Shown: in pieces, positions 2,705-41,691 of the stretch
Layout of the letters: each line of letters opens with the position of its first letter
Position numbering within the stretch: the first letter of the stretch is position 1
From: Acidimicrobiia bacterium
GTDB taxonomy: Bacteria; Actinomycetota; Acidimicrobiia; IMCC26256; JAGPDB01
Direction: 5' to 3'
Length of the DNA stretch: 45,480 nt
Assembly: GCA_018057765.1 (NCBI GenBank)
Contig: JAGPDB010000014.1
Span: 1 to 45,480, forward strand
The notes under the pieces: model-generated
The model's input: the letters and a program-made list of their open reading frames with translations, nothing else
Told to the model about the DNA's origin: nothing
The model's database searches: none
Program-made: the position numbers and the translations under genes

Positions 2705-3919
2705 TTAAACTATGTGTTCACCAGAGATTGCACGAGCAACAACTAGTCTCTGAATTTCAGAAGTTCCTTCAAAAATCGTATATATCTTTGCATCACGATG
2801 CCATCTCTCAACTGGATAATCACGGGTATAACCATATCCACCTAAAATTTGAATCGCACGATCAGTAACACTCACAGCTACTTCACCAGCTTTTAGTTTT
2901 GACATTGAGCCTTGACCAGTATCGAAATGTTTCCCATTTCTAGCCATCCAACAAGCACGCCAAACTAGTAGTCGCGCAGCATCAATTTCAGTCACCATAT
3001 CAGCCAAAGAAAAAGCAATAGCCTGATTTTGAATTATAGGACGACCAAACTGTACCCTTCCCTTCGCATATTCAAGAGCATATTCATAGGCCGCGCGAGC
3101 AATCCCAATTGCTTGAGCACCAACTAACGGACGCGATGCTTCAAATGTACTCATTGCAGCTTGAGTTTTAGAAGATTTACCTTCTTTAGCTTTAGCAATA
3201 CGAGCATCTAGTTTCTCTTTTCCACCCAATAGCATCGACCCTGGGATACGAACATCATCTAAAACAACTTCTGCAGTGTGGCTAGCTCTAATACCATGTT
3301 TTTTGAACTTCTGGCCTTGAGATAAGCCCTTGGTTCCTGGTGGAACAATAAAGCTTGCATGACCGCGTGAGCGCAACTCTGGTTCTACACTGGCTACCAC
3401 AACATGTATGTCGGCTATTCCACCATTTGTAATCCATGTCTTTGTCCCATTTAATACCCATTCATCTTTTGCTTCGTCATAAACAGCTTTTGTACGAAGT
3501 GAACTAACATCAGAACCAGCATCTGGTTCGCTTACACAAAATGCTGCGAGACCTATTTTTTCTTTAGTACCAAAACACTGTGGAATCCATAAAGCAATTT
3601 GTTCAGGTGTACCATTTCCCATTATTCCACTAACGCCGAGTGCTGTCCCCATTATCGATAAGCCAATACCAGCATCGCCCCAGAATAATTCTTCCATTGC
3701 AATTGGCATGGTGATTCCAGTTTCATCAGTGAAAGCCTGCGCTAAAAATTCCCAAGAATACAATCCTATATTTGCAGCTTCTTGAATTATTTCCCAAGGG
3801 GTTTCTTCACGTTCGTCATAATCAGATGCAACTGGACGAATAGTATTCACAGCAAACTCGTGAATCCAATCTTTTATTTGTACTTGATCTTCCGTAAGCT
3901 CTACATTAAAACCTGACAT
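2705..3919 (-). CDS. acyl-CoA dehydrogenase
   Basis: FAD-dependent enzyme that oxidises an acyl-CoA to the trans-2-enoyl-CoA and passes electrons to electron-transfer flavoprotein. The family signatures are present: [15 protein letters not shown] (about residues 145-160), [14 protein letters not shown] (about 170-183), [20 protein letters not shown] (about 357-376), and FEGTSEIQ near the C-terminus, whose Glu (about residue 384) is at the position of the MCAD catalytic base. Length is about 404 residues. The start is set at the second possible codon (ATG at 3919) because AGGAG sits 5 nt upstream of it; the GTG at 3925 is too close to that Shine-Dalgarno. Chain-length specificity cannot be read from sequence. 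It is a single gene with no ETF genes next to it. Confidence 0.92.
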
Positions 3920-5982: not shown

Positions 5983-6726
5983 TTATTCTTCTCGTCGATT
6001 ATTTAGTGTACGAAAGAGTGCAACTTCCTCAAGGAAACGGCCAAAAATTATTGATGGATTCCCAAATAGTTCTGGATGCCACTGGACTCCAACAGCGAAC
6101 CAATCTGAAGTAGTTTCTATAGCTTCAATTGTCCCATCACTAGCGTAACCACCAATAAGTAGATCTTTACCTAGTTGGTCAATACATTGATGATGTACCG
6201 AATTGGAAGTTATTTCATTCGTTGGAAATATTTTATCAAACCAAGTTCCTGAAACAATATCTACTCTGTGCCTGACTGCAGATCTCTCTTCAAATGTCTC
6301 TCCTAATATAGGATGGTCAGATCTCTTACCAGCGATATCTTGATTTAAAGAACCGCCTTTAAAAACATTCAGTGCTTGCATACCACGACAAATTCCCAAT
6401 GTTGGAATTTGCATTTCTTGCGCAGTTTTCAATAGAGCAAAATCACTTTTATCTAAAGCTTCGTGAGGAATTTTTGTATTTTCTCCTAATTCCTGTCCAT
6501 AATATTTTGGGTCAATATCACGACCACCCGGGACTACAACTCCATCAATCGCTGATAATATAGTTGGCATATCCTCAAGCGAAGATATAGGCATCAATGT
6601 CACGATAGCTCCTTGGCTCCGCAATGCATCAATATCAGCTTGATAAACATATTCTCTAAAACGAGGTTCATGTTTAGGAGCAGCATCACTTGAAGGTCGA
6701 GTAGCTATTAATATTCTGGGTTTCAT
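5983..6726 (-). CDS. gamma-glutamyl-GABA hydrolase-like class I amidotransferase (peptidase C26)
   Basis: Glutaminase-fold hydrolase of the PuuD family, expected to hydrolyse a gamma-glutamyl amide such as gamma-glutamyl-GABA in the putrescine utilisation pathway. The nucleophile Cys is in LGICRGMQALNVFKGGSLNQD (about residues 111-131) and the catalytic His-Glu in VQWHPEL (about 214-220); GVVVPGGRDIDP (about 61-72) forms the oxyanion strand. The length of 247 residues fits. It lies 31 nt downstream of the PotC-like permease in the same orientation, so it is probably the last gene of the polyamine importer operon, which supports a polyamine-derived substrate. No gamma-glutamylputrescine synthetase or oxidase is visible here. 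Confidence 0.87.
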   Translation of the reverse strand: MKPRILIATRPSSDAAPKHEPRFREYVYQADIDALRSQGAIVTLMPISSLEDMPTILSAIDGVVVPGGRDIDPKYYGQELGENTKIPHEALDKSDFALLKTAQEMQIPTLGICRGMQALNVFKGGSLNQDIAGKRSDHPILGETFEERSAVRHRVDIVSGTWFDKIFPTNEITSNSVHHQCIDQLGKDLLIGGYASDGTIEAIETTSDWFAVGVQWHPELFGNPSIIFGRFLEEVALFRTLNNRREE

Positions 6727-6757
6727 GTAAGTCTCTTCGGGCTATTAAGGTAAACTC

Positions 6758-7654
6758 TCAAGGAGTATTTGCACGTATCTTAGCAATTTTTTTCTGTTTT
6801 CGAATAGATAAAACTGTCGGAATTATAAATATTGTTGTAGTTATTATCAATAAAATGCTCGATAGTACGTTTATCTGAGGAGGGATAGCAGTTCTAGATT
6901 GACCAAAAACTTGAATAGGGAATGTTTTAACGTCACCACTTACGAATAGAGTAATAATAAAATCATCAAAAGATAAAGCAAAAGATAATAAAAATGCTGC
7001 AAAAATACCAGGCAGTGCTAGTGGAAATATTACTTTAAAAAAAGTTTGTCTCCCGTTTGCACCTAAGTCCTTGGCGGCATCTTCTATGGCCCAATCGAAA
7101 CCTCGTAATCGCGCTTTTACTGTTAATGTTATATAGCTCATGCAAAACATTATGTGTGCAATAAATATTGTTGGCATACCAAAAGGAATTTTTAAAGTAT
7201 GTCCACCTATTTTATATGTGAAGTCTAAAAATAGTGTTAGGAGTGAAGCACCAAGAACTATTTCTGGTGTAGTAAGCGGCAAAACTAGAAAACCTGCGAT
7301 TGCACCAGAACCTTTTATTTTCCTTCGCGCTAGAGCAAAAGCTATAAGTGAACCAAGGATCACTGCGATTAGAGAAGAACCCAATGCAATATATATAGAT
7401 CTATATAGAGAATTATTTAATTCTGGATAATAAAATTTATTAGGCTCTCCGCCCATAATTGTTTTTACCCAATGTTTAGTCGTGAAGCCTTTCCAAACTA
7501 AATTAAATTTTGATGAAGGGTCATTAAAGCTAAAAATCAGAATGATTGAAATTGGTATAAATAGATAGATCATTACAAGGGTTCCAGAAATATTAACTCC
7601 CCAGCGGCCTAATTTTCCCCCTCTTGATTCAACGTAAGTTTCTTTATCACTCAT
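6758..7654 (-). CDS. potC: spermidine/putrescine-type ABC transporter permease (PotC-like)
   Basis: Inner-membrane permease subunit of a polyamine-type importer. About six hydrophobic segments are visible, the first at about residues 20-43. The EAA loop is AKDLGANGRQTFFKVIFPLALPGI (about 191-214; the core GANGRQTFFKVIFPLALP docks the ATPase). The 298-residue length is slightly longer than E. coli PotC because of an N-terminal cytoplasmic extension. It overlaps the PotB-like gene by 4 nt (ATGA type), so the two are translationally coupled. The substrate assignment rests on the homologous gene set; related importers take up other polyamines or amino-acid-derived amines. Confidence 0.9.
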   Translation of the reverse strand: MSDKETYVESRGGKLGRWGVNISGTLVMIYLFIPISIILIFSFNDPSSKFNLVWKGFTTKHWVKTIMGGEPNKFYYPELNNSLYRSIYIALGSSLIAVILGSLIAFALARRKIKGSGAIAGFLVLPLTTPEIVLGASLLTLFLDFTYKIGGHTLKIPFGMPTIFIAHIMFCMSYITLTVKARLRGFDWAIEDAAKDLGANGRQTFFKVIFPLALPGIFAAFLLSFALSFDDFIITLFVSGDVKTFPIQVFGQSRTAIPPQINVLSSILLIITTTIFIIPTVLSIRKQKKIAKIRANTP

Positions 7655-8544
7655 CCAGCTAAATCCTCTGCATCAAAAATTGAACTGTAAATTATGAATA
7701 GAATTACAACAATCAACATAAATATAAAAGAAAGTGCCGATGCTACAGGATAATTACTTTGACGCAAAAATTGGTCTTGTACAACTGTACCTATCATAGA
7801 TGTTTTTGCTGAACCTAAATAATATGTATTAACAAAATCGCCTGCAGCAGGAATAAAGACTAGAAGACTACCTGCAAAGATTCCTGGTGCAGCCATAGGT
7901 AGAATTATCTTTCGAAATGCTATAAATGTATTTGCATATAGATCGCGTGCAACATTCATTAATTTTGGATCGATTTTTTCTAATGCAACGTATAGAGGAA
8001 GAATCATGAATGGTAAGAAGTTATATACGAGTCCACCAATTACAGCATATGGTGTTCTTAAAACTTGAAAATCACTAGGCAAAATTGAGATAGTTGCATT
8101 AGGTCCAACAAAGTGAGAGAAAATAGGTCCATGTGAGCCAAGAATAGTTTTCCAAGCTAATGTTCTAATTAAGAAACTCGTAAAGAATGGCACCATTACT
8201 ATGCCCATCCAAAAGTTTTTCCATCGTCCAGCTCTGAAAGCTATTATATATGCGAGTGGGAATGCTAAAAATATTGCAATAATTGTTGCAATGATGGCAT
8301 AGGTGAAAGATCTTTGAAATTGTGCTCCGTAATCTGTGAATGCAGTCGAATAATTTGACCATTCCCAAGCAAACTTAACGTTTCCAAACCTGGTTGGCCT
8401 TACTGAAAGTGATTTAATAAATAAAGAAATTAGAGGTATCAGAAAGAATAAAATTAACCAGATTATTCCAGGAGAAAGCATTGCTACTGGAGCAAATCTT
8501 CTTTTTCTTTTTACGGTTTCTTCTACCTCTATATCTTCAGCCAT
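7651..8544 (-). CDS. potB: spermidine/putrescine-type ABC transporter permease (PotB-like)
   Basis: Second permease of the polyamine-type importer. It shows a hydrophobic first segment (about residues 20-45), the multi-pass core, and the EAA-type loop ARDLYANTFIAFRKIILP (about 199-216). The FxPxxGxFVN feature typical of PotB is seen as FIPAAGDFVNTYYLG (about 230-244). It overlaps PotC by 4 nt and lies 9 nt after the binding-protein gene, so all are one operon transcribed leftward. Confidence 0.9.
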   Translation of the reverse strand: MAEDIEVEETVKRKRRFAPVAMLSPGIIWLILFFLIPLISLFIKSLSVRPTRFGNVKFAWEWSNYSTAFTDYGAQFQRSFTYAIIATIIAIFLAFPLAYIIAFRAGRWKNFWMGIVMVPFFTSFLIRTLAWKTILGSHGPIFSHFVGPNATISILPSDFQVLRTPYAVIGGLVYNFLPFMILPLYVALEKIDPKLMNVARDLYANTFIAFRKIILPMAAPGIFAGSLLVFIPAAGDFVNTYYLGSAKTSMIGTVVQDQFLRQSNYPVASALSFIFMLIVVILFIIYSSIFDAEDLAG

Positions 8545-35098: not shown

Positions 35099-36133
35099 CT
35101 ACGATACAGCGCTTTTACTCCACATATTTACTGGCTCAGTTCCTAGCGCAGGAAACAATACATTGCTCTCTTTGTGTATATGTAAATGTATATCAGACTC
35201 AAGATCTGCCAATGCTTGGTAGCATGCAGCATAGGTTGCACATCCATCAGCAGGTGTTGAATAACCATTAGTTATTAAATTTAATTTTGCAAGCATATCG
35301 CCAACATTCTTATGTTCATCAGCAATTTCTTTAACTCGTGCAACGAATTCTTCAGTAGCGGCTTCTGTACTTTCTGAATTAGCTATTTCACGGACCTTTG
35401 GAAATAGCATTTCTTCCTCTGCTTTAAGGTGTGGTTCTAGGTCAGCTCGGATTGCTTCGTATAGACTTTCTACTTCAAGTAACTCTGGGTGTCGCTCACC
35501 GTGAACATCTGCAATTTTTTGTACTAATGCGCCTGTACGATCAAAATTATCCCATAAATATTTGTGATGAACTGACTCAATATTGTCCATTAATTCAACT
35601 GGGCTAAGCGATGCCCAATCTGCTGGCTCTTCATCGATCATTGCATCGGTTAATTCATCTGCAAGTTTTTGCGCATCGAGACCTTTAGAAGTGGCTGCGT
35701 CTTGTAATGTTCTTGCACCTTGACAACAATAATCGAGACCACGCTTTTCGAATTCTATAGCTAATGATGGGTTCTGAGTAACAATTTCTCCGAGTATCAT
35801 CGATGGAACTATTGTGTTCGTGTTCGAGTTTGTGCTTGTAGTTGAATTCATTTTTATTTCACTTTCTTTATTATGTGTACACGATGTTGATAATGTGACT
35901 GGTTCAAGATTTATCATCTGGGTTTCACCAGAGTAAATTTCTGTACCATGTAAGCCGGCACTAATAGTTGCAGTGATAGATTCGAGTGCTCCATCGTCAT
36001 AGTCAATCTCGATGCATGGTCCAGAAAATGATCCGTGTACAGATTGCACGCCTTCTAGCTGTGAGAGGTTTTCGAGCGTCTCGTTAAAACAACTTGGACA
36101 GTTAGCACCTTTGACACTAATTGATGATTGCAT
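35099..36133 (-). CDS. ric: RIC/ScdA-type di-iron Fe-S repair protein with N-terminal HMA domain
   Basis: Di-iron protein thought to repair Fe-S centres damaged by nitric oxide or peroxide (ScdA/YtfE/RIC). Three parts: an N-terminal heavy-metal-associated (HMA)-like domain with GANCPSC (about residues 9-15), then a Ser/Thr/Asn linker with a Cys, then a DUF542 domain with AIEFEKRGLDYCCQG (about 120-134), then a hemerythrin-like domain with histidines and glutamates in SVHHKYLWDNF, HGERHPEL, LEPHLKAEEEMLFP, EHKNVG and LHIHKESNVLFPAL. RIC proteins are usually about 220-250 residues; the HMA fusion lengthens this one to 344. The ATG at 36133 is chosen because AGGAG precedes it; an upstream TTG at 36169 is rejected. 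It lies downstream of the regulator on the same strand. Confidence 0.88.
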   Translation of the reverse strand: MQSSISVKGANCPSCFNETLENLSQLEGVQSVHGSFSGPCIEIDYDDGALESITATISAGLHGTEIYSGETQMINLEPVTLSTSCTHNKESEIKMNSTTSTNSNTNTIVPSMILGEIVTQNPSLAIEFEKRGLDYCCQGARTLQDAATSKGLDAQKLADELTDAMIDEEPADWASLSPVELMDNIESVHHKYLWDNFDRTGALVQKIADVHGERHPELLEVESLYEAIRADLEPHLKAEEEMLFPKVREIANSESTEAATEEFVARVKEIADEHKNVGDMLAKLNLITNGYSTPADGCATYAACYQALADLESDIHLHIHKESNVLFPALGTEPVNMWSKSAVS

Positions 36134-36184
36134 ATCTCCTACTTTCTGACTTCTTAGATTCAGATTCAATATTCATGCTAGTCG

Positions 36185-37218: not shown

Positions 37219-38796
37219 TTATAAACCAAGATCTGGATCATGAGGAGTTGAAAGAATGCCTGCTATTCCTGCATCAAAAGCACCTTGATCAAGTGTAATT
37301 TCAGTTGGATTACCTAAATCTAAACTTTCAACATCAACATTAATATAGCCTATTGCGCGAGCAGCTGCTATAAAGTCTTCGCGGGTAATATCGTTAACTA
37401 AAGCGGTACCAGTCGTAAGAAAGTCTCCCGCTGCTGAATCTCTCAATGCGCTCTCAAAATTTCTAGCAGTTGCCCAGTAACCAAATTCCACACCAGCAGT
37501 TTCTATCATCTGATCAAAAAGCCAAGCCGTATGATCAGCAAAATTTGGCGGTAAGCCAATTCCATCTTTAGCAAGCGAATACGTCACAGAACTAGCTAGT
37601 TGCACTTTGCTAGGTAGATCAAGGTCTATTAACAATAACCTTCTGTCCCAACCTGCATCTTGTGAGAGCACTTGCTTAAATTCATTTCTATAACCTGCAA
37701 ATATAACTATGACGCCACTATTCAACAAATCATCAACTTGTTCAAAAACTACGTCAAGTGTACGTTTTCTAAAATTTGCAGAGCCATTAGAGCCTTTACC
37801 TTCATTGAATTTATGCGCTTCATCAACTAATAAAACACCGCCATTTTCCTTTAATTTTACTAAAGTGTCCTTTATTTCCTTTGCCATATGGTCAACAAAT
37901 TGTTCAGTATCTTTTCCTGGTGAAAATACCACAAATTCATTTCCGCATATTCCCATAGCTGCAAACAGATGTTGAAGAATTTTTGCTGATTCAGTTTTAC
38001 CAACACCTGGAGGTCCCAATAGTGCTATATGACGAGTCAGCTTGCCCTGCCTGGCAATCTGGCCTGATAGCATTTTTGCGAGCGCCCAAGCTGTTGGTAA
38101 AGCAGGATTTTGAAGGTTCTGATTTAAAACTCCACTTAATAAAGGAAATCTTTTTGCAGCATCAGGATGGATAAAGTACCTCTCATCTGAGACTGGATGA
38201 TTAGGTGGTCTTGTTTCGTGATGAGATGGAACAGAATCAGGTTGCTCTGGTATGACAACATCAAGTTCATTATCGTCTATATTTGGCCATAACTTACTCG
38301 GATTCCATGAAGCAGTGATTACATTATCTTGATCGTCTAATTCTAACACTTCTTTACCGACTAGATAGTTAAGATATTGCCAAAGATATCTGTCTTCTCT
38401 CATAAATTTTAACATGCTAATTAATGATTGGGCAGAATCAGGAGTCGAAATATTTTCGAATAATCTATCCTCGATACCATTGCTTCTCCACATTCTATAT
38501 GTTTTAACTAATGTACTACCGACTATCTGTTTATGCGCGTCATTAGGCTCTTCTGTGTCTTGATCGAAACAAAACTCCTTAACGTCGTCTAAAATTTCTT
38601 TGTACCCCTGATAAAAAAATGTGTGTTTAACTTCAGCATCTAGATCAACTAAAAATGACCCCAAAGTAAATAAATCGAAATTTGGTAAATCTTCACAGAC
38701 GAACCTTACCCAGTGCTTTTCAAATTCAGCATCGGTTCTAGGTTGAGAAGCCAATCTTTGAAGTGCTTCGTCATACTCAATATCTGTATATTCCAT
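37219..38796 (-). CDS. CbxX/EccA-like AAA+ ATPase with unrecognised N-terminal domain
   Basis: One AAA+ module sits in the second half: Walker A GPPGVGKT (residues 261-268), pore-loop region FSPGKDTEQFVDHM (about 291-304), Walker B VLLVDEAHKF (321-330), sensor 1 VIFAGYRNEF (about 364-373), arginine finger WDRR (383-386), sensor 2 ATARNFES (442-449). This set is closest to CbbX, SpoVK and EccA-type remodelling ATPases. The first about 200 residues are an acidic, helical domain I do not recognise, followed by a Pro-rich linker (about 183-203). Length is 525. No membrane segment. It has a good AAGGA Shine-Dalgarno. A small ORF precedes it and an unknown gene is divergent from it; none of the usual EccA or Rubisco partners is present. 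Confidence 0.8.
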   Translation of the reverse strand: MEYTDIEYDEALQRLASQPRTDAEFEKHWVRFVCEDLPNFDLFTLGSFLVDLDAEVKHTFFYQGYKEILDDVKEFCFDQDTEEPNDAHKQIVGSTLVKTYRMWRSNGIEDRLFENISTPDSAQSLISMLKFMREDRYLWQYLNYLVGKEVLELDDQDNVITASWNPSKLWPNIDDNELDVVIPEQPDSVPSHHETRPPNHPVSDERYFIHPDAAKRFPLLSGVLNQNLQNPALPTAWALAKMLSGQIARQGKLTRHIALLGPPGVGKTESAKILQHLFAAMGICGNEFVVFSPGKDTEQFVDHMAKEIKDTLVKLKENGGVLLVDEAHKFNEGKGSNGSANFRKRTLDVVFEQVDDLLNSGVIVIFAGYRNEFKQVLSQDAGWDRRLLLIDLDLPSKVQLASSVTYSLAKDGIGLPPNFADHTAWLFDQMIETAGVEFGYWATARNFESALRDSAAGDFLTTGTALVNDITREDFIAAARAIGYINVDVESLDLGNPTEITLDQGAFDAGIAGILSTPHDPDLGL

Positions 38797-38883
38797 TTCC
38801 TCGTTCCTTCGAGCTAGACCAGTAAAATTTATGATTTATGCTTGTATTTTATATCTTTGTCTTATTAAACGTCAATTCGAGAA

Positions 38884-39081
38884 TTAGTTTAGACAGACAC
38901 CAACTATTTTGAATGGACCTTCTGGTGACGATATATCTACTACAAGTTCTTTCATTAGTGCAATGACTTGATTTCGAACAAAGTCCATTCCCATGTCTTC
39001 TACAAGTTCAGATTGTTTTGCTGGTTGTAATGACATATATAGGGAATAGCTAGCCAGTATATATTGCGCAAGTATAGACAT
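38884..39081 (-). CDS. possible small protein, 65 residues
   Basis: Short ORF in the gap between the AAA gene and the divergent unknown gene, same strand as the AAA gene and 87 nt before it. The sequence looks protein-like (SELVEDMGMDFVRNQVIAL, ending in DISSPEGPFKIVGVCLN), but there is no Shine-Dalgarno or leaderless hexamer at ATG 39081; an internal ATG at 39036 would give 50 residues. No family recognised. It may instead be only a leader or chance ORF. Confidence 0.4.
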   Translation of the reverse strand: MSILAQYILASYSLYMSLQPAKQSELVEDMGMDFVRNQVIALMKELVVDISSPEGPFKIVGVCLN

Positions 39082-39101
39082 ATTGCTAGCACATACGAAA
39101 G

Positions 39102-39131
39102 TTGACAGATGTAAAAGTTTTATACTACTAT
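39102..39131 (+). promoter_or_regulatory. near-consensus promoter of the unknown gene, leaderless type
   Basis: A perfect -35 TTGACA (39102-39107), an 18-nt spacer and -10 TACTAT (39126-39131), followed by 7 nt and the ATG at 39139. This is the best sigma-70-type promoter in the window and supports a start at 39139 rather than 39130. Confidence 0.65.
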
Positions 39132-39138
39132 GGGCGTT

Positions 39139-40134
39139 ATGACCAATACTTCCGGCCCTAATGCGCCTAACCCGCGTGGAAATACTCAAAATCAAGAACC
39201 AGGCCAACAACCTGGGATCGACACTTTAGAATTCTATGCCCTAACTCCATATGTAGACCAGATAAGAGCAATAATCCATGCTCTGAATCCAAAACAACCT
39301 GACACTGTAACCATTGATACTGCACACCGCACTTTAATATATTGCCAATCCATGGTGCTACGTGCATTTCCATTTGACCTCGAAACTCCTTACCAAAAAA
39401 ATACTATGGGTTTCGAATCGTATAATAATGGTTTTAATTTATATTATGAACAAAGCAAAAGAGGTGGAACCTATGGAGAACGTTTGTCTAGCCAACGATT
39501 AATGGAAGCAGGATTTTGGCTTGAACATAGACAGGTACATGAAATTGCCGGTACAAAACTTTTGGATTTTAAAAGACATGACCCAAATATACAAAAAGGT
39601 TTTGATCGGGAATCAAATAGTCTAACCAACAATCCAGAAAATCCAATTGATGGTATGTGTCAACGTCATGGTAGATCAATGCAAGCTACTTTTGTTATGG
39701 ACCGATTCGAAGCGCTTGCCCTTTATGTTTTACATAGTGCCCGCGAACGTGGAATCCCCGTGGAATTTAAAGGCACAAGTTATGACACTCAAATCTACAA
39801 CGGATTTGCGCGCTATAAAGTAAATGGTGTACCCATGATGCTTGCCTCTCTTGGTAGTCGATTAGAAGATAGAATGACTTGTGTAGCTGCTATTAACAGC
39901 GAGTTGAGCAAAATTGATAGTTTTGATAAAAAAATGGGAATAATAAAACCTGATGACCGTGTTAGTGCTACACCTGGCCGTAACGGATATTCCCAGTTCG
40001 CCGAATTTAGTGATGGTTCACGGTCTAAAAATGTAGCAGCGGGAGTCGAAGCTATGCTTGATGCTATGTCGAAAGTTGTCCAACTCACACAAGTCGAACT
40101 CACTAAGCCAATAACAGATTCATTCTATCCTTAA
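39139..40134 (+). CDS. protein of unknown function, divergent partner of the AAA+ ATPase
   Basis: A 331-residue protein that I do not recognise. It starts with a Pro/Asn/Gln-rich disordered tail (about 25 residues), then TLEFYALTPYVDQIRAII (about 30-47), a Tyr-rich central part (FESYNNGFNLYYEQSKRGG, about 93-111), a segment with FVMDRFEALALYVLHSARER (about 187-206; core RFEALALYVLHSARE), and a C-terminal helix near 300-320. No signal peptide, membrane segment, cysteine cluster or nucleotide-binding motif. The start is set at 39139 because its promoter spacing predicts a leaderless mRNA there; 39130 is the alternative. It is divergent from a AAA+ gene and may be its substrate or adaptor (inference). 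It converges with the NuoF-like gene at 15 nt. Confidence 0.6.
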   Translation: MTNTSGPNAPNPRGNTQNQEPGQQPGIDTLEFYALTPYVDQIRAIIHALNPKQPDTVTIDTAHRTLIYCQSMVLRAFPFDLETPYQKNTMGFESYNNGFNLYYEQSKRGGTYGERLSSQRLMEAGFWLEHRQVHEIAGTKLLDFKRHDPNIQKGFDRESNSLTNNPENPIDGMCQRHGRSMQATFVMDRFEALALYVLHSARERGIPVEFKGTSYDTQIYNGFARYKVNGVPMMLASLGSRLEDRMTCVAAINSELSKIDSFDKKMGIIKPDDRVSATPGRNGYSQFAEFSDGSRSKNVAAGVEAMLDAMSKVVQLTQVELTKPITDSFYP

Positions 40135-40149
40135 ACTGGCCACCAAAAA

Positions 40150-41547
40150 CTAATCGGCATAAGTCCAGTCAGGCTGTTTGCGAGAATATGACCCATCATA
40201 AACTGCAACTCCATCTTCAAGATTAATCAATTTAGGGATCAACAATTCTCTCGGGTTTGGACATTTGCCTAGTTGTATATGCTCTGCAAATTCTTGTGGA
40301 AAGGCACGCATAATACTTCGCACCATTACTTGTTCTTCGACAGCTAAATAACAACGGTTTCCATCGGCAACATGATTCAACCAACCTTTGATTGCTTTAA
40401 TGTCTTGCTCATCACCATTGCCCGTCTCAATCTTGTTTAGATGTTCGGTAATTGCACCTGAACCAATTTTGCACGGCGGACATTGGCCACATGATTCAAT
40501 AGATAGAAATCTCGAAAAAATATTTGCGACATTTACCATACAAGTAGTGTCGTCATAAACAATAAATCCTGCAGACCCAAGGCCACTGCCGATTGCTTGA
40601 AAACTTTCATAGCTAATTGGGACATCAAGATCAGCAAATGTCACCACGGTATTAGCAACACCAGAAAATACTGCCTTTATGCTACGACCCTTTGCTAGTC
40701 CGCTACCAACAGCATTGATGACAGTGTTTAATGGTGCACCCATTTCCACTTCACCAACATCGGGTGCAAGAACATCTCCAATCACAGTTACAATAATTGT
40801 CCCAGGTGATTCTTTTGTACCCATCGAGCGAAACCAGTCGACACCATTAGTCAAAATGTGAGGGATGTTCGATAAGGTTTCAACATTATTTACCAAGGTA
40901 GGATTAGAACCGCCAGTCACAGAGTTATCAGAGCCATCGCCTGCCTCACTGTTTTGTGATTGCCAACCAGTTTGTGGTCCATCAGAAAATAACCCTTGTA
41001 CATATGGCGGCAACCAACGTGGCAGTGGATCATTGCCTTCAATAACTTCAAGCATTGCTTTTTCTTCGCCATATAAATATTCGTCGGGACCAGCAACAAT
41101 AGTTATTGAACAACTTCGACAAAGCTCTGCTGTCTGAAATTCTTTTACTGCGCGTGTGAGTATTTCAATCTCACGCTCAAAACTTTGCTTTAAACAAATG
41201 AATGCCTCAACAGCTCCTATCGCAAAAGCGGCTATGGCGACTCCTTCGACGAGTTGATAAGGGTTTGCACGAATTAGTGCTCGATCCTTAAATGTTCCCG
41301 GTTCTCCTTCTGCACCATTACAAACTAAATAACGTTGGCCACTATTCTGCTCGGCTATTCCAGCCCATTTTTTCCCAGTAGGAAAACCTCCACCACCGCG
41401 ACCTCTTAATCCTGACTTCGCCACTTCCAGTATTGTAGCTTCACGACCAAGTTCGTGTGCACGAGCAATACCTTTGCCCCCTGTCAGAGATTTAAGATAA
41501 GCATCAATTGTTGTAATAGGTTCTGGTGGCAATAAGAAAGTAGTCAT
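40150..41547 (-). CDS. NuoF-like NADH dehydrogenase flavoprotein, stand-alone
   Basis: Complex I 51-kDa subunit-like protein that would bind NADH, FMN and one [4Fe-4S] cluster. The glycine-rich loop [15 protein letters not shown] (about residues 47-61) binds [19 protein letters not shown] (about 78-92) FMN, and the cluster cysteines are in [12 protein letters not shown] plus a fourth in [12 protein letters not shown]. An SLBB region lies between. The length of about 465 is normal. No NuoE or NuoG is adjacent, so it is not part of a complex I operon here; it may form a small NADH-dependent electron carrier complex with a ferredoxin elsewhere. GAGAAT lies 6 nt before the ATG at 41547, the preferred start over ATG 41565. 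A broken paralogue lies at 44955-45480. Confidence 0.85.
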
Positions 41548-41553
41548 AGCTAT

Positions 41554-41559
41554 ATTCTC
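41554..41559 (-). promoter_or_regulatory. -10-like hexamer of the NuoF-like gene
   Basis: GAGAAT on the minus strand, exactly 6 nt before the ATG at 41547. It is a weaker match than the other leaderless-type hexamers but has the same spacing. Confidence 0.35.
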
Positions 41560-41691
41560 GCACATTGATTAGACCCGCATTGGATTTAATAATATTTATT
41601 AGAAACACAACTGGCAAACTTCTATATCATCATATTTAGAATTGTGCACTCAATGTTTTGCGTAATGTAGCTTGTTAAGAAATAAGTGTTG

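Follow-up and report, generated by a model that had tools for sequence, protein, structure and literature searches.

The region analysed here (positions 37219-40134) belongs to a window of 45,480 nucleotides on contig 14 of a 1.76-Mb genome that is 97% complete. It holds the gene of a 525-residue AAA+ ATPase on the reverse strand (37219-38796), with a divergent SpoVK/CbbX/EccA-like core that matches PF00004 (2e-13). Facing it on the forward strand is a gene for a 331-residue protein (39139-40134; 334 residues if counted from the ATG at 39130), and a 65-residue ORF lies between the two on the reverse strand (38884-39081). In agreement with the initial annotation, the ATPase gene and the facing frame both proved to be real. 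They are longer than any stop-free run obtained when the 2916 bp were shuffled 1000 times (median of the longest run 91 codons, maximum 243) and are therefore beyond chance. Codon use also supported them, with scores of 0.222 bits per codon for the ATPase and a slightly low 0.121 for the facing gene (ordinary genes of the window: mean 0.216, minimum 0.145), and the alternative frames of both genes were not coding. The small ORF that had been noted between them exists, but its status as a gene is unproven; its coding score is modest (0.149), and neither of the congeneric genomes, G024 and G025, yielded a relative.

The ribosome-binding stretch AGGAACGAGG stands immediately 5' of the ATPase ATG, and a candidate promoter defined solely by consensus match, TTGACG-18-TAAAAT, is found on the same strand at 38846-38875. 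For the 331-residue protein, a candidate promoter of the same kind, TTGACA-18-TACTAT, is located at 39102-39131 on the forward strand. This site had been described as the best promoter in the window, a claim that we could not uphold: it scores 10/12 and is one of 28 consensus matches in the window with at least 10/12, one of which reaches 11, and the number of promoter-like sites in the region is that of shuffled sequence. Its -10 box overlaps the ATG at 39130, so that, if the promoter were used, the transcript would start at about the second ATG (39139) and the 331-residue product would be leaderless.

The surrounding genes include suf genes, an iron-sulfur repair protein, nrdD, nrdG and a NuoF-like gene, and we saw no tRNA or composition jump near the locus. 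The repair protein (35099-36169, reverse strand) is of the RIC/ScdA type (TIGR03652, above cut-off) and is extended at its N terminus by a region that includes an HMA/CopZ-like stretch with CPSC (E 8e-5 to the CopZ model), which could make it a copper-chaperone/Fe-S-repair fusion. The NuoF-like gene (40150-41565, reverse strand), which adjoins nrdG and nrdD, is convergent with the 331-residue gene and lies 15 bp from its 3' end. Its product scores 309 bits against a NuoF equivalog cut-off of 559 and is possibly a component of another NAD-linked complex.

Conservation of the gene pair

The genus sample comprised three species: that of the window (G000), G024 and G025, the last being the MAG 'Actinomycetota bacterium isolate KLAP143' (94% complete). 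A full-length relative of the ATPase was found only in KLAP143 (L014/L008; contig CAUJDU010000098.1), with 43% identity overall, and a class sample of 395 genomes yielded none outside the genus. Phage, plasmid and viral collections returned AAA-core-type matches only, with no full-length relative of the ATPase and no match to the 331-residue protein, and we rejected an origin from such elements. In KLAP143, the ATPase gene has other neighbours: an acyl-ACP thioesterase gene on its 5' side, whose stop ends at 901 directly before the ATPase ATG at 902, and a gene for a hexapeptide-repeat protein on its 3' side. The 331-residue gene is absent both from the vicinity of the ATPase and from the whole KLAP143 genome. 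The ATPase occurs in G000 and G025, the 331-residue gene in G000 only, and neither is present in G024.

The 331-residue protein has no significant family match, in line with its original description, and no membrane segment is indicated (maximum 19-residue hydropathy 1.0), so that it is probably soluble. Searches of the genus, the order, a phylum sample of 396 genomes, phages, plasmids and IMG/VR, where the scan reaches close relatives only, detected no relatives. Weak matches in five genomes of the phylum sample (E 0.003-0.008) were put down to chance in view of the 396 genomes searched; on reading the sequences, three proved to lie in FtsY-like GTPases and a fourth in an aspartate kinase, and the fifth is a low-scoring match in a frame with an internal stop. 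As the facing gene is not kept beside the ATPase in its relative, and no homologue of it was found in any genome searched, there is no evidence of a system made of the two. The proposal of an undescribed system in the shape of a two-gene chaperone/partner module does not hold up in that form. The lack of conservation across three species is strong but not final evidence against it.

The AAA core and the N-terminal domain

The AAA+ core spans residues 246-395 (37612-38061) as delimited by alignment, and is followed by a C-terminal lid (residues 396-500; 37297-37611). Alignments that took in CbbX, EccA1, a phage SpoVK-like protein and a Calothrix AAA protein placed Walker A (GPPGVGKT) at 261-268, the pore-loop aromatic at Phe300, Walker B (LLVDEA) at 322-327, sensor-1 (AGY) at 367-369 and the arginine finger at 385-386, as a double arginine before strand 5. 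All five elements are present in both the window and the KLAP143 proteins. No membrane segment is indicated. With Walker A, the DE of Walker B and the arginine finger in place, the gene product is apparently an active AAA+ ATPase. A 40-bp DNA match elsewhere in the same genome (contig C16) reflects a generic AAA motif within a clpC-like gene (L010 11718-14375), near which lies a gene for a 345-residue protein without Pfam match (L010 10448-11485).

The initial assignment of the ATPase as CbxX/EccA-like was borne out for its core. Curated models ranked SpoVK first (TIGR02881, 61 bits), followed by EccA (TIGR03922, 44.5), CbbX (TIGR02880, 37.7) and FtsH (22.5), and the top PDB profile matches were EccA1 and CbbX, with EccA1 also first in a second PDB search. 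However, the scores for SpoVK, EccA and CbbX are far below the NCBIfam equivalog cut-offs of 423, 467 and 459 bits, respectively. Members of this clade share a sensor-1 tyrosine (GY), an asparagine before the arginine finger and a sensor-2 arginine that acts as a second arginine finger, and have a bihelical hairpin directly before Walker A (PMC10659427). For the region before Walker A, an AlphaFold2 (AF2) model places helices at 211-226 and 233-249, but at a pLDDT of about 50. The tyrosine is present in the window protein and in KLAP143 (AGY in each). In contrast, the asparagine is replaced by aspartate in both proteins (Asp380 in the window protein), within a segment reading DAGWDRR in the window protein and DAGFGRR in KLAP143 as against NPGLRSR or NEGLSSR in clade members. 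The sensor-2 arginine is likewise replaced by alanine in both (Ala442), where the lid reads GYWATARN at 439-446 (GYWATANN in KLAP143) and clade members carry GNAR or GNGR; the aligned Calothrix protein (GNAG) also lacks this arginine. As two of the three clade signatures are missing from both proteins, the ATPase could represent a separate sister branch or have an altered ATPase behaviour. Judged from its sequence, the protein would work like the SpoVK/CbbX/EccA remodellers, whose cores are nearest to its own, and is not to be filed as SpoVK, EccA or CbbX.

The N-terminal part had been described as unlike anything known over 200-250 residues, and about 240 residues indeed lack a match to any Pfam, NCBIfam or PADLOC family; a PHROG search of this part gave no match except one driven by the AAA core. 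With low to moderate confidence, two AF2 models (pLDDT 52 and 57) both predict eight helices and then a beta hairpin within residues 1-175 (38272-38796), which we take as the N-terminal domain. Foldseek with a model of this domain, built from two sequences (pLDDT 57, pTM 0.46), returned nothing under E 0.98, and the best hit of a PDB profile search, DEK (E 0.03), was not significant. Outside its own genome and KLAP143, the domain had no relatives in the 396-genome phylum sample and no match in IMG/VR. Identity between the window and KLAP143 proteins falls from 64% in the AAA core to 46% in the lid and 27% in the N-terminal domain, the pattern that would be expected if the core were generic and the N-terminal domain tracked a changing client. 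By these comparisons, the N-terminal domain is new, fast-changing and restricted, among the genomes searched, to two species of one genus.

Stand-alone N-terminal domains and competing readings

Profile and phmmer searches recovered two tandem genes that encode the N-terminal domain on its own, each with a variable tail, in the same genome as the ATPase (L009, G000:C34, 4972-5688 and 5805-6485; phmmer E 1e-19 to 1e-21). The initial annotation could not have noticed them, since they lie outside the window. They occur only in the genome that carries the window ATPase, and a profile search did not find a copy in KLAP143, although the ATPase is present there. Nineteen positions are invariant in all four N-terminal domains, including W29, C34, L37-P38, C76, W164 and W170. 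The tail of one copy resembles the C-terminal tail of the KLAP143 ATPase (score reached by 11 of 5000 shuffles), while its likeness to the window ATPase is not significant (3986 of 5000). The copies adjoin other unknown genes upstream of a 23S rRNA gene. The products of these genes, which sit just before the rRNA gene at the contig end, are of 523 residues (1274-2845), 314 residues with HEAT-like repeats (2956-3900) and 589 residues (6561-8330). We regard the stand-alone copies as the most interesting lead from this locus, and a better one than the proposed two-gene system.

The ATPase may be a genus-restricted remodeller in which the N-terminal domain serves as a shared interaction module; the two stand-alone proteins would then act as adaptors or decoys tuning client recruitment, or as clients, through mixed rings or competition for the client. 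The 19 invariant positions, the restriction of the tandem copies to the genome with the window ATPase and the tail likeness of one copy to the KLAP143 protein are consistent with this idea. We nevertheless hold it to be tentative and rather unlikely, given that the copies are on a different contig from the ATPase, that KLAP143 has the ATPase and no copy, and that the tail likeness does not extend to the window protein. To our knowledge, regulation by detached N-terminal domains acting as adaptors or decoys has not been described for SpoVK/CbbX/EccA-like ATPases.

A second reading, which goes back to the initial annotation, makes the 331-residue protein the lineage-specific client or partner of the ATPase, co-expressed from the divergent promoter region. 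Here the two genes are adjacent and divergent with promoter-like sites on both sides, and the N-terminal domains of the clade vary between families, so that a species-specific client would fit. KLAP143, however, has the ATPase without this gene, the promoter is unexceptional, and the convergent NuoF-like gene only 15 bp away suggests that adjacency may be incidental; altogether, we find such a partnership improbable. Still less probable, to the point of being a marginal candidate, is that the ATPase and the orphan belong to an anti-phage or conflict island. Orphan genes, patchy occurrence and a rapidly evolving domain that has tandem duplicates would fit this idea, but PADLOC gave generic AAA matches only (DolB 1e-4, IetA 3e-4), housekeeping genes (suf, nrdDG and the NuoF-like gene) stand on both sides, and neither a tRNA nor a composition jump was seen nearby.

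A probable, divergent AAA+ remodeller compared with known ATPases

Our preferred reading, to which we assign a probability of about 0.6, is that the locus encodes a divergent AAA+ remodeller of narrow purpose, equipped with a new recruitment domain and lying beside an unrelated lineage-specific orphan. In the clade of SpoVK, CbbX and EccA, the N-terminal domains are variable and have been proposed to recruit substrates, no association with peptidases has been found, and the characterised members are narrow chaperones (PMC10659427). By analogy, the ATPase would be a ring-forming remodeller of this type in the broad sense, probably a hexamer, in which ATP hydrolysis would drive the Phe300 pore loop to tug on the client. 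The client, probably drawn from a narrow range and recruited by the new helical N-terminal domain, would be activated, disassembled or remodelled rather than degraded. Most likely, the 331-residue gene and the 65-residue ORF are orphans specific to the lineage and became neighbours by chance, presumably without any partnership with the ATPase. The characterised members of the clade act as dedicated activators, and few of their narrow targets are known, namely Rubisco, MurG and type VII substrates; a new N-terminal domain with detached paralogs could serve as a handle for finding another.

Among the known members, EccA is the AAA ATPase of type VII secretion, and CbbX is the activase of red-type Rubisco. 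EccA1 (PDB 9lur) gave the best PDB sequence match (6e-11) and likewise has a large helical N-terminal region followed by an AAA core, but no TPR match was found in the N-terminal domain of the window protein. A search for EccB was uninformative: it gave no match in the three genus genomes, and none in the control genomes either. CbbX (PDB 3zuh/3syk) aligns with the core over residues 253-388, its pore-loop QYI being represented by QFV, and ranked second in Foldseek with the weak full-length model; however, its model covers 284 positions and lacks an N-terminal domain of this kind. SpoVK, which activates MurG in sporulation (PMC10659427), supplies the curated model with which the AAA core scores highest (residues 249-395), and has the same order of motifs and no peptidase. 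It differs in having an N-terminal domain of about 41 residues, to which the much larger one of the 525-residue window protein is unrelated, and the window ATPase lacks the sensor-2 arginine and the asparagine before the arginine finger and comes from a host that is not a sporulating Firmicute. FtsH shares the general classical AAA core and usually also lacks the sensor-2 arginine (PMC10659427). The window ATPase, in contrast, reaches only 22.5 bits with the FtsH model, has neither membrane segment nor zinc peptidase domain, and carries the GY sensor-1 signature that sets the SpoVK/CbbX/EccA clade apart from FtsH.
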